Shown here: piece by piece, positions 50,592 to 55,042 of the stretch
Numbering within the stretch: the first letter of the stretch is position 1
How the letters are laid out: each line of letters begins with the position of its first letter
Assembly: GCA_001458075.1 (NCBI GenBank)
Contig: LN899469.1
Span: forward strand, 868,001 to 932,000
Reading direction: 5' to 3'
DNA from: Idiomarinaceae bacterium HL-53
Lineage (GTDB): Bacteria > Pseudomonadota > Gammaproteobacteria > Enterobacterales > Alteromonadaceae
DNA length: 64,000 nucleotides
The notes under the pieces: model-generated
What the model saw: only the letters and a program-made list of their open reading frames with translations
Databases searched by the model: none
What the model was told of the DNA's origin: nothing
Translations under genes and position numbers: made by a program

Positions 50592-51110
50592 CTAGAAGCC
50601 TAGCTTCTCGATTATCTCATTTGCGACAATTTTGGCACTTTGTTCGTCGGTTTGAATGACGATATCTGCAATTTCTTCATACAGCGGTTCGCGTTCGTCC
50701 GCCAATGATTCTAATACTGCCCGAGGATCGTCTGCATTTGCCAAAAGGGGTCTGCGTTTGTCTCGTTCTGTGCGAGCGACCTGCTTATCGATGGTGGTTT
50801 TTAGGTAGACCACAATGCCGCGTGCCGACAGTTTATTTCTATTTTCCTTGCTAACAATAGAGCCGCCACCTGTGGCGAGCACTATGCCGACGTTTTCAGT
50901 TAAGTCGCTGATCACTTTCTCTTCACGTACACGAAAACCCTCTTCTCCTTCAAGCTCAAAAACCCAACTGATATCGGCGCCGGTGCGACGTTCAATTTCG
51001 GTATCAGAGTCAAAGAATTCTAAATGGAGGGATTTTGCAAGTTGCCGACCAATCGTGCTTTTGCCAGCACCCATTGGCCCTACTAAAAAAATATTACGCT
51101 TATCAGCCAT
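50592..51110 (-). CDS. aroK: Shikimate kinase I
   Basis: 172 residues. Phosphorylates shikimate at O3. P-loop GPMGAGKST at 11-19, [13 protein letters not shown] (substrate-binding Asp), [20 protein letters not shown] and RPLL lid motif. First gene of aroK-aroB-damX. The 144-bp region between it and the ORF upstream holds an imperfect hairpin (GTGAAAAAAGACAC area) but no obvious promoter or gene. Confidence 0.97.
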
Positions 51111-51254: not shown

Positions 51255-52322
51255 TCAACTACTCATCTCCTGTTCAACGCTGCATTGAGACGCCGTATGG
51301 CTCCATACGATGCGCTCACTCTGTATTTCAGTGAGTTGCCACTCGGAAGAGATAAGGTCATGCAGATAGAGTTTTTTCATTTGTTGCTGAGTAGTTATCA
51401 CAATAAATGTAAGTGCTTCTTGGATTGAAGTTGCCGATTCGCGGTAAATGGCATTGATAGTAATGCTTTGTTGATCGAATTTTGGGCAGGGATTAGTGTG
51501 CTCATTTTTATCCAATGCAATCGTGTTATTGACCGATACCGCCTCCGTGGTTTCATTCGGCTTCTCGATCTCGATGTTCGCTAGCATAGGAGCGTGCTGA
51601 GGTGTTGGAGTCGAATCATGGTGATAGATCCACAGGGAGCAACATGTGCTGATTATTACTGCGGCAGTGAGTCCGCCTCGAAAACGACGTCGGCTCGCTC
51701 TTTCAAGCGGTGTTCGTTTTAAATTGAAAGTGCTCTTGGCAAAATAGAAACGTGTTCCGTGAATTGCAAGGTAGAGCGAAGTAAGGTGCTGTACTACGAA
51801 CGAGTCGCTGCACTCAGCGTCTGGAAGCTCTTCCGGTGTGAAAGGTTGGGTAGCACTCGCAATGTTCATGGGCGCCAATCGAGCTGCCTGTAATGGCGCG
51901 AGCAAGCGAAGAAGCTCTGCTCGATGCAGTCTGGCAATTTTCGCACATTGTTTCGACTCGATTTCCTCTTTTATGTCCCACTGCCAGTCTTCGGGAGACA
52001 TGTTCTTTGCGTGAAACCAATCAACTGGCCATTGTGGAGAGACGCGGAAACCTTGTGGGAGTGTTATCGAATCGAGAAAAAGTTGGTCGGTAGGGAGCAA
52101 TAACGTCCATTTTTTCAGTTTCAGGGAACTTATGAAATGGAGCAGACTCTCAGAAGTGTGTGTGAGTACAGGGCGCTGGCAAAACGAGTCGATAGATAGC
52201 TTGAATTGCCCGCCCTCTCTCTTTTTTTGGGGCCTACGGCTTACACAAATAGCAGTGAGCCAATAAGCCTCAACGAGGACAAACCACTGTTTTGTTCCTA
52301 ATTCCCAATTAGAAAACCTCAT
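51255..52322 (-). CDS. Unrecognised protein in the pilMNOPQ locus; possible condensed PilM-PilN-PilP (HofMNP) fusion
   Basis: 355 residues, no confident family by eye. It sits exactly where pilMNOPQ (hofMNOPQ) lies in relatives, between aroK and the divergent mrcA. Parts resemble pil proteins: residues about 70-165 recall PilM/HofM (TLLLPTDQLFLDSITLP; SPEDWQWDIKEEIE; LLRLLAPLQAARLAPMN); residues about 200-240 recall the PilN start (FNLKRTPLERASRRRF then one membrane helix); the C-terminal 70 residues recall HofP (LISSEWQLTEIQSERIVW and a Cys). Walker-like ATP residues of PilM are not visible. PilO and the PilQ secretin are absent. Function unknown. Confidence 0.7.
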   Translation of the reverse strand: MRFSNWELGTKQWFVLVEAYWLTAICVSRRPQKKREGGQFKLSIDSFCQRPVLTHTSESLLHFISSLKLKKWTLLLPTDQLFLDSITLPQGFRVSPQWPVDWFHAKNMSPEDWQWDIKEEIESKQCAKIARLHRAELLRLLAPLQAARLAPMNIASATQPFTPEELPDAECSDSFVVQHLTSLYLAIHGTRFYFAKSTFNLKRTPLERASRRRFRGGLTAAVIISTCCSLWIYHHDSTPTPQHAPMLANIEIEKPNETTEAVSVNNTIALDKNEHTNPCPKFDQQSITINAIYRESATSIQEALTFIVITTQQQMKKLYLHDLISSEWQLTEIQSERIVWSHTASQCSVEQEMSS

Positions 52323-52387
52323 TATTTAACCTCAATTAACAGAACGATAAGCTTTAACGGTTAAATTTAGTTCAGAAACTACATATA

Positions 52388-55042
52388 ATGCGGTTTAGTT
52401 TGCTAGGCGATCTCGGACTCTTATTTGTGCTGAAGTTTTTTAAATTTCTTTTTATCTCCATGTTCACAATGGGCTTCATCGGCTTATGCGCGGTGATTGG
52501 TTTGTATTTTTATGTGAAACCGGAGCTCCCCAGTGTAGAAACACTGCGTGACGTGACGTTCCAAACACCGATGCAGGTGTTCAGCGAGGACGGCAAACTG
52601 ATTGCTCAGTTTGGCGAGAAACGCCGCATTCCGGTTACCTATGATGATTTGCCTCAAGATTTAATTGATGCCGTGCTCGCCACGGAAGATTCGCGTTTCT
52701 ATGACCACTTAGGCGTTGACCCGATTGGAGTGCTTCGTGCGGTGCGCGTTTTGATTACCACGGGTTCCGCACGAGAAGGAGCCAGTACAATTACGATGCA
52801 GGTGGCGAGAAACTTCTTTTTGACTCGCGACAGAGTGCTGATGCGTAAAATTAAAGAAACCTTTATTGCACTGCACATTGAACGACTGTTGAGTAAAGAA
52901 GAAATCTTGGCGCTGTACATGAATAAGCCTGGATTAGGGCACCGCTCGTTTGGTGTAGCTGCGGCGGCGGAAGTTTATTACGGCCGGACACTCGATGAAC
53001 TGACACTTGCAGAACTTGCAACCATTGCTGGTTTGTTCCAAGCGCCTTCTGCGTTAAACCCGATTTCAAATCCAGAGCGTTCTGTACAGCGCAGACGCAT
53101 TGTTTTGGACCGTATGTTGGACATGGGGTACATTACCGAAGCGGAATACGAAGAAGCGTACAATGCCCCTGTTACCGCGCGTTATCACGTGCCAGAAGTT
53201 GAATTTAGCGCGCCATATGTGGCTGAAATGGTGCGTAGAGATATGGTCGAACGCTTCGGTGAAGACGTGGCGTACAACAGCGGTATGCGTGTGTACACCA
53301 CAATTAATTCAGAAATGCAGCAGGCAGCGGAAGCGGCGCTGCGCGAGAATTTACACGGTTACGACGAGCGCCACGGTTACCGTGGGGCAGTCAGCAAGCT
53401 CTGGGGTTACAGTACTCGCGAGGTGAGCAACCTGAGCGTCGGCGGGCCAATAACCGCGCCGATGTTAGAAGCAATTCTAGCCAACAACGGACAACCCTGG
53501 CCACACGACGTGATTCGTTTGCATTTGGAGCGTCAACCTCGTTATGGGCGGCTTATTGCAGCGGTCGTGTTGAGTGTGCAAGAGCAGACCGCAGAAGTCA
53601 TGCTTCGAACGGGAGAAATCGTCACCTTACCGTGGGAAGCGATGGACTGGGCACGGCCTTTTCTTGATCACGATCGCCAAGGACCCGCACCGCAAACCGC
53701 TGCCGAGATACTGACTTCAGGTGATCAAATCTGGGTGCGTGAAGTAAACGATGAATTGCGTTTAGCTCAACTGCCGGGGCCTAGTTCCTCGGTTGTTTCA
53801 ATGAATCCCAGAGACGGCGCAATTCAAGCGATTGTGGGGGGGTATAGCTTCAATGTAAGTCAATACAACCGCGCGACCCAAGCAAAGCGTCAGGTAGGCT
53901 CTACCATTAAGCCCTTTATCTATTCGGCGGCTTTAGATCAAGGTTTCACCTTATCAACCTTGGTCAATGACGCCCCTATTACACAATGGAATCCGAGCGC
54001 CGGCTCAGCATGGCGCCCGCGTAACTCTCCTGAGCAATATGATGGCCCGATTCGTTTGCGTGAAGCACTCGCGCGCTCTAAGAACGTGGTGTCAGTGCGT
54101 TTAGTTCGGGCTATGGGGGTCGACACTGTTGCGGATTATTTGCCTCGGTTTGGCTTTGCAGCGAATGATTTAGCGCGCAACGAGACCATTGCGCTCGGTT
54201 CAGCGAGTTTTACACCGCTGGAGATGTCTCGTGCCTTTGCCGTATTTGCTAACGGCGGTTTCTTAGTTGAGCCCTACTTTATTGACAAAATCGAAAGTAC
54301 TGAGGGTGAACTCATTTTCAAAACAGAGCCGGCCATCGGTTGTTCAGAGTGTGAGGAAGCGCAAGCAACGGTCGCAGAATTAGAGGCAGAGCAGGCGGAG
54401 CGCGACAATGAAGACGCGGCTCAGGTAGAAATTCCAGAGGAATTATTGGCACTCGCAGATGTGAAGCTAGCACCGCGAGTTCTGAGCGCGCAAACGGCCT
54501 ATTTAGTGTCGAATGCTATGCAATCATCCATTTGGGGTGGTGGTTCGTGGCAACATAACACGGGCTGGAATGGTACCGCATGGCGGGCTCAAGTATTCAG
54601 AAATCGAAATATGTCGGGTAAGACGGGTACCACAAACGATGTAAAAGACGCATGGTTTGCAGGCTTTGTGCGTGGGCACGTGGGTGTTGTTTGGGTTGGG
54701 TTTGATAATCTTGATGCCGAACTCGGTCGCACAACACTGAATCCAAATCTGGGTCGGCAACGGCAACCTATCGTGGCTTCAGAGTCGGGCGGTACCACTG
54801 CGCTTCCGGCTTGGGTTGAATATATGAGAACGGCATTGCCACTCGTAGAAAGCGGCGCTCAGCCTCTTCCTGAAGGAATTGTTTCAGCGCGTGTTGATAC
54901 TCGAACAGGGAAGTTGTCAAACCAGAGTGACCATACGAGTCTGTTCGAGTATTTTAAGCAGGGCACGGCGCCAACCGAGTTTAGCGAAGGCGACCGCTCC
55001 TCACCGCTCATTTTCGAAGATGTCGAAGAGGGTTTATTCTAG
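52388..55042 (+). CDS. mrcA: Penicillin-binding protein 1A, bifunctional transglycosylase/transpeptidase
   Basis: 884 residues. N-terminal membrane helix, GT51 domain (ATEDSRFYDHLGVDP; GASTITMQVARN; RKIKETFIALHIERLLSKEEI), an OB-like insert, and transpeptidase with SxxK at Ser505-Lys508 (GSTIKP), SKN (RSKNVVS) and KTG at 745-747. It polymerises and crosslinks peptidoglycan. Oddities: STITMQVARN replaces the usual STITQQLARN and YMNKPGLGHRSFG the usual YLNKIYLGYRAYG. The ATG at 52388 overlaps a TATAAT (52384-52389), so a GTG at 52427, which would match the E. coli N terminus better, may be the true start. Confidence 0.95.
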   Translation: MRFSLLGDLGLLFVLKFFKFLFISMFTMGFIGLCAVIGLYFYVKPELPSVETLRDVTFQTPMQVFSEDGKLIAQFGEKRRIPVTYDDLPQDLIDAVLATEDSRFYDHLGVDPIGVLRAVRVLITTGSAREGASTITMQVARNFFLTRDRVLMRKIKETFIALHIERLLSKEEILALYMNKPGLGHRSFGVAAAAEVYYGRTLDELTLAELATIAGLFQAPSALNPISNPERSVQRRRIVLDRMLDMGYITEAEYEEAYNAPVTARYHVPEVEFSAPYVAEMVRRDMVERFGEDVAYNSGMRVYTTINSEMQQAAEAALRENLHGYDERHGYRGAVSKLWGYSTREVSNLSVGGPITAPMLEAILANNGQPWPHDVIRLHLERQPRYGRLIAAVVLSVQEQTAEVMLRTGEIVTLPWEAMDWARPFLDHDRQGPAPQTAAEILTSGDQIWVREVNDELRLAQLPGPSSSVVSMNPRDGAIQAIVGGYSFNVSQYNRATQAKRQVGSTIKPFIYSAALDQGFTLSTLVNDAPITQWNPSAGSAWRPRNSPEQYDGPIRLREALARSKNVVSVRLVRAMGVDTVADYLPRFGFAANDLARNETIALGSASFTPLEMSRAFAVFANGGFLVEPYFIDKIESTEGELIFKTEPAIGCSECEEAQATVAELEAEQAERDNEDAAQVEIPEELLALADVKLAPRVLSAQTAYLVSNAMQSSIWGGGSWQHNTGWNGTAWRAQVFRNRNMSGKTGTTNDVKDAWFAGFVRGHVGVVWVGFDNLDAELGRTTLNPNLGRQRQPIVASESGGTTALPAWVEYMRTALPLVESGAQPLPEGIVSARVDTRTGKLSNQSDHTSLFEYFKQGTAPTEFSEGDRSSPLIFEDVEEGLF

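Follow-up and report, generated by a model that had tools for sequence, protein, structure and literature searches.

A probable condensed PilM-PilN-PilP protein in the pilMNOPQ slot of an Aliidiomarina genome

The assembly core of type IVa pili consists of PilM-PilP together with PilD, a pilin, an ATPase and a platform protein, and type IVa filaments made without PilQ, i.e., in pilQ pilT mutants, stay trapped in the periplasm (review PMC10191384). PulL/GspL is known to be built as a fusion of PilM and PilN in a single chain (PMC10191384). E. coli without hofQ yields no uptake-dependent transformants (PMC3330819). Our search of the literature found no paper on the pilMNOPQ slot, which lies between aroK and mrcA, in Aliidiomarina.

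The window is a stretch of 64,000 nucleotides (G000:C1:868001-932000) from Idiomarinaceae bacterium HL-53, the genome of which (G000) is a single 2.74-Mb contig. Amongst named genomes, its mrcA gene was best matched in Aliidiomarina sp. B3213 (80%), which places the window genome in Aliidiomarina. The first-pass annotation had described one intact 355-codon gene in the slot, in the same orientation as the set that it replaces, and this ORF was indeed the sole gene of the aroK-mrcA interval. The features are as follows.

51255..52322, minus strand: the ORF read here as an MNP fusion, stop codon included; 355 codons/aa, ATG start, no internal stop
50592..51110, minus strand: aroK, one flank of the pilMNOPQ slot
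52388..55042, plus strand: mrcA (PBP1a), the other flank of the slot
52330..52333, minus strand: GAGG, a Shine-Dalgarno-like site 7 nt 5' of the ATG of the MNP ORF

A search for a CRP-S site 5' of the ORF gave none that was convincing. By eye, the encoded protein had been read as a PilM half devoid of ATP motifs, a PilN beginning and a HofP/PilP end. Pfam and NCBIfam profile searches returned no match on the 355-aa ORF itself. Specifically, the PilM profile TIGR01175 did not match it (there were matches elsewhere in the genome, none over the cut-off), nor did the PilP/HofP profiles (PF04351/PF10748) over the cut-off, sub-threshold HofP matches being obtained in congeners only. The three-part reading as a whole is supported via evolutionary intermediates and the predicted fold, which in the N-terminal half is that of PilM/GspL at E<=0.001, and not by direct profile matches. 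The parts of the protein are as follows.

51852..52295, minus strand: aa 10-157, PilM/GspL-type actin-like domain, corresponding to the first half of PilM (AF2 pLDDT mostly 73-96; Foldseek)
51756..51788, minus strand: aa 179-189, helix at the place of the last PilM helix (by eye; low pLDDT)
51684..51728, minus strand: aa 199-213, PilN-type N-terminal motif FNLKRTP and basic stretch (by-eye sequence comparison)
51627..51677, minus strand: aa 216-232, single predicted membrane helix, at the hydropathy maximum of the protein
51267..51488, minus strand: aa 279-352, PilP/HofP-like periplasmic beta domain between Cys279 and Cys347

When the predicted model of aa 10-157 was submitted to Foldseek, 12 PDB structures matched at E<=0.001, every one of them a GspL cytoplasmic domain or PilM (E values from 1.8e-7 to 6.4e-4). 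As modelled, the N-terminal half has the actin-like PilM/GspL fold. The M part is about 195 aa long versus about 355 for PilM, and the second, nucleotide-binding half of PilM is absent, both as sequence and as a modelled domain. The helix at aa 179-189 (LYLAIHGTRF) corresponds by eye to LLGLALRGF in the sister genus. The PilN-type motif, INLLPWRE in PilN itself, is LNLLQWRE in the sister genus, LNLxRP in congeners and FNLKRTP in the window; although degenerate, it is followed, on a by-eye reading, by a basic stretch and the helix at 216-232, positioned as in PilN. This helix is predicted to follow the positive-inside rule, which would leave the N-terminus in the cytoplasm. The ferredoxin-like periplasmic domain of PilN was not found in the protein, aa 233-275 being devoid of predicted structure (pLDDT <50). 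Finally, intact PilP proteins of the family carry two cysteines about 79 residues apart, a trait of PilP in this lineage and not of the whole PilP family. This pair is kept as C279/C347 in the window protein and is present in all forms that join a PilN start to a PilP end (NP); in forms where O and P are fused (OP), C190/C252 are the only near-invariant residues apart from the start.

Comparison of the locus amongst relatives, suggested by the first-pass annotation, uncovered a series of stepwise condensed forms. The genus was represented by 17 Aliidiomarina genomes, including that of the window, plus the named strain B3213 (18 in total). In 28 loci of other genera (21 from the family/order and seven more), the slot holds a complete five-ORF set in pilMNOPQ order and the interval measures 4.5-5.5 kb, versus 1.3-2.3 kb in 17 of 17 Aliidiomarina genomes. 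The whole set is still full length in genus g51, while the slot of the sister genus g53 contains M (259-274 aa), N, OP as one fused frame and PilQ shortened to 422-427 aa; g53 and g51 are probably Idiomarina and Pseudidiomarina. Within Aliidiomarina, M-like, N-like and fused O-P frames are kept in 13 of the 17 genomes, two of which have M and N fused (377-389 aa); this M-N fusion, in the clade of A. maris, would have arisen independently. The four other genomes, including that of the window, have only M and an NP frame, and the window genome alone has M fused to NP (MNP). The locus series accordingly runs from M-N-O-P-Q through M-N-OP-Q with a short Q (sister genus), M-N-OP without Q, and M-NP to MNP. 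In a tree of mrcA and aroK, the sister genus, Aliidiomarina, the M-NP sub-clade and the window genome are nested in that order, such that each loss or fusion is needed only once.

In the nearest relative, B3213, M and NP are ORFs of 202 and 170 aa that share a reading frame, with a single TGA between them, and the 30% identity to the window ORF runs across this stop. As there is no in-frame start codon at the M/NP junction in the window, the ORF should be read as one chain. A fusion created by sequencing error was considered; the junction without a start codon and the single-contig genome, both properties of the assembled sequence, argue against it. Two further genomes merit mention. In G001 (L049 818-1435), the OP ORF is cut to 205 aa by another, different reduction that removed most of the P domain, hence the P part can be dispensable. 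G003 (L126), titled in its record as a MAG of Idiomarina sp., is placed inside Aliidiomarina by mrcA and aroK.

Direct comparison of M, N and NP from the genus with PilM, PilN and PilP of the family was not significant, and intermediates were required. In profile-profile comparisons, the sister genus matched the family at E values of 9.9e-8 for PilM, 4.3e-8 for PilN, 3.2e-5 and 2.9e-6 for PilO/PilP and 8e-127 for PilQ, with the expected family partner of M, N, OP and Q far ahead of other candidates. OP of the genus in turn matched OP of the sister genus over its whole length (E 1e-4 over 236 columns) and family PilP (E 4.8e-4). NP matched both OP (E=1.5e-5) and N (E 1.3e-6) of the genus; since the two matches share overlapping NP columns in hhalign, one may be spurious. 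The cysteine pair and the C-terminal pattern favour the match to OP, and the match to N may be the spurious one. For M, the match of the genus profile to PilM was no more than suggestive (E 0.007-0.01), and the GspL cytoplasmic domain scored similarly (E 0.0017); the predicted structure of aa 10-157 of the window protein fills this gap. A model of OP from a congener showed weak matches, though of high probability, to PilP (3jc8_Pa, probability 0.99, E 0.022) and PilO (2rjz, probability 0.93, E 0.034) of the type IVa machine, and no structure match at E<=0.001. The top Pfam matches of members of the OP alignment were T2SSM, HofO and HofP. An hmmsearch of PDB sequences yielded only sub-threshold GspM for this alignment and nothing for that of M.

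Both PilO and PilQ had been described as missing. No PilO-like ORF is left in the aroK-mrcA slot of the window genome, and no PilQ-family secretin scored over the cut-off in that genome, its four secretins being read as GspD, MshL, RcpA (Tad) and a BfpB/TcpC type. Of 59 relatives searched with the PilQ profile (TIGR02515), 39 had a match over the cut-off, and no Aliidiomarina was among them. In a sample of 158 genomes of the family, PilQ was present in 152; those lacking it were four Aliidiomarina and two incomplete genomes of another genus. The BfpB/TcpC-type (type IVb-like) secretin lies at G000:C1:2489800-2496300 (L004) with pilin-like genes and a nearby 524-aa ATPase, and would represent an extra pilus system. 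A Tad/Flp cluster with an RcpC-like protein, the RcpA secretin and a TadA-like ATPase is found at G000:C1:1868067-1871525 (L003).

The pilin, extension ATPase, platform protein and prepilin peptidase of the type IVa system are all present in the window genome, as are PilT and minor pilins. The pilABCD and minor-pilin loci are as follows.

G000:C1:327357-330867 (L087 5358-8868): pilABCD, in its usual place between nadC and coaE
G000:C1, about 107.1-108.5 kb (L161 5143-6493): reduced minor-pilin operon after ispH, with a PpdA-like, a PpdB-like and a third small gene

PilA has 154 aa and a prepilin motif, PilC has 410 aa and PilD, named from position and similarity, has 285 aa. PilB, at 327 aa, retains Walker A, Walker B and the His box, and has lost the N domain and the Cys4 motif; it is short across Aliidiomarina, and 439-461 aa long in g53. 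The first-ranked NCBIfam families were PpdD for PilA and HofB for PilB, HofC ranked third for PilC, and two of the minor pilins had PpdA and PpdB as top families. No PilY1 was seen beside the minor-pilin operon. In the nine Aliidiomarina genomes examined, including that of the window, pilABCD was intact with Walker A and B present. PilT was full length, and ComEA and ComEC were present, in every Aliidiomarina genome searched; no PilU-type second match was seen in these. Judged from its genes, the remaining machine is miniaturised in the style of E. coli Hof, yet present.

Descent of the MNP ORF by stepwise condensation of pilMNOPQ in place is well supported and in our judgement very probable; the first-pass annotation had favoured descent over chance. 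The reading rests on the series of congener and sister-genus loci, the PilM/GspL fold of the N-terminal half, the in-frame two-ORF state of B3213, the apparent junction of a PilN-like motif and helix, and the PilP cysteine pair; the combination of a complete pilMNOPQ elsewhere with relatives lacking any ancestor at the slot was not found. In a first step, O and P would have fused while Q and PilB shortened, the state of the sister genus. Q would then have been lost throughout Aliidiomarina, followed in one sub-clade by loss of the N periplasmic domain and O, joining the start of PilN to the end of PilP, and finally, in the window genome, by fusion of M to NP. The product would be a bitopic inner-membrane protein comprising, in order, a PilM/GspL-like cytoplasmic domain without its second half, a PilN-type motif, one helix, a linker and a PilP-like periplasmic domain presumably closed by a C279-C347 disulfide.

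Whether the protein still works as a pilus scaffold is a separate question, on which our judgement, again not a computed value, is at or slightly above even. As such a scaffold, its M domain would face PilB/PilC, the PilN-type segment would cross the membrane and the PilP-like domain would lie in the periplasm, forming a one-piece platform for a miniaturised type IVa pilus of the Hof (DNA-uptake) type. PilA would be assembled by the short PilB, PilC and PilD, and retracted by PilT. The fusion is mechanically plausible by analogy, as PilM-PilN fusions are known from PulL/GspL. Without a secretin of its own, the filament would be either a periplasmic endopilus or one using another secretin; periplasmic trapping in the absence of PilQ (PMC10191384) and the need for hofQ (PMC3330819) make the favoured reading a secretin-less or secretin-borrowing one. 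The hofQ requirement also renders a role in DNA uptake without a secretin questionable. For the whole of this explanation, i.e., a condensed MNP protein serving as the one-piece scaffold of a secretin-less Hof-type pilus, we estimate a probability of about 0.6. We propose more tentatively that the genus as a whole relies on a miniaturised type IVa pilus without a secretin of its own, either an endopilus or one borrowing GspD or MshL, in which the scaffold was reduced from four proteins to two, and here to one, with a GspL-type fusion arising twice independently (M-N in the A. maris clade, M-NP here).

The main and strongest rival is slow decay, in which the common ancestor of Aliidiomarina lost the secretin of the DNA-uptake pilus and all remaining parts have been eroding since, MNP being a relic with no essential function under weak and vanishing selection. 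In favour of this, domain loss is monotonic across the series, PilB is truncated and PilU was not found, and uptake in E. coli requires the secretin (PMC3330819). The ORF changes very fast, which counts against the favoured reading: between the window and B3213, dN is approximately 0.86 versus 0.14 for mrcA, with synonymous sites saturated. In G009 and G010, a single pair from a sub-clade other than that of the window and with unfused M, N and OP genes, dN/dS was 0.27 for M+N+OP (bootstrap 0.18-0.39), a value that shows purifying selection in these two close congeners, and 0.24-0.31 for the separate genes, versus 0.033 for mrcA. A close sister-genus pair gave 0.27-0.29 for N and OP, 0.08 for M and 0.06 for Q. 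Nevertheless, open orthologous ORFs were found in 18 of 18 genomes despite saturated synonymous sites, most of them with Shine-Dalgarno-like sequences, whereas a neutral ORF of equal length would remain open with a probability of 0.0015 at 0.2 substitutions per site and in 0 of 2000 trials at 0.3. The ORF is thus not there by chance, and, given that a neutral ORF would be interrupted long before such divergence, the proteins appear constrained, though loosely. Intact pilA-D genes with their ATPase motifs in every Aliidiomarina genome examined and the near-invariant cysteine pair likewise count against decay, which we consider unlikely. As to the alternatives originally offered, an eroded locus or a scaffold retained for another job, the data tilt towards a protein that has been retained and evolves fast.

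If retained, the protein might have left the pilus for another envelope function, serving, e.g., as an additional GspL/GspC-like component of the T2SS or MSHA. Its M part fits PilM and the cytoplasmic domain of GspL equally well, GspL is itself built as a PilM-PilN fusion (PMC10191384), and the T2SS and MSHA clusters of the window genome are complete. These clusters are separate, however, and have scaffold genes of their own, the T2SS already possessing GspL, GspM and GspC; moreover, it is PilP, not GspC, that the P part matches. The protein is also retained together with pilA-D and PilT genus-wide, including in genomes without MshE: no MshE-like ATPase was found in G005, G009 and G010, which keep full-length PilT, so PilT is not retained solely for MSHA. 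Re-use of this kind therefore seems improbable to us. An origin by duplication of GspL/GspC, which the fold cannot separate from PilM, was rejected on the basis of the slot, the series and the P-domain match. That an unrelated or newly arisen gene sits in the slot by accident, as the lack of Pfam and NCBIfam matches might suggest, is already contradicted by the continuous locus series, the in-frame two-ORF state of B3213 and the PilM/GspL fold, and can be given hardly any weight.

Should the condensed MNP protein be functional, it would show on how small a part of the PilMNOPQ apparatus a type IVa machine can run. It would also provide a naturally occurring diderm system in which pilus assembly and DNA uptake could be studied where no secretin is dedicated to them, and would document a gradual route, ordered along the phylogeny, that leads from the PilMNOP complex to a GspL-like fusion.

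Set beside known systems, the window locus is closest in position to PilMNOP, the inner-membrane complex of type IVa pili, and to E. coli HofMNOP, with which it shares slot and gene order as well as the PilM first-half fold, a putative PilN-type motif with its membrane helix and the cysteine-bounded PilP domain. It differs in having one 355-aa chain instead of four, no PilQ/HofQ, and neither the second half of PilM, the periplasmic domain of PilN nor PilO. GspL (PulL/EpsL) of the T2SS, which supplied the best Foldseek matches, is also a single chain that joins an actin-like cytoplasmic domain to a membrane segment of PilN type, as the window protein appears to be; the latter, however, ends in a PilP-like domain in place of the GspL periplasmic domain and is encoded outside the T2SS operon, in a genome with a separate GspL. 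The E. coli HofB/HofC/PpdD type IVa pilus, which functions in DNA uptake, has in common a short PilB without the N domain and Cys4 motif, and PpdD, HofC, PpdA and PpdB are amongst the closest named families of the window pilin, platform and minor pilins. Unlike that pilus, the window system lacks the HofQ secretin and separate HofMNOP proteins, and its PilB is even shorter. Finally, the monoderm Com pilus shares the absence of a secretin and a short extension ATPase, the ComGA family being among the matches of PilB, whereas the host of the window locus is a diderm that has PilT and a putative PilMNP-derived scaffold.
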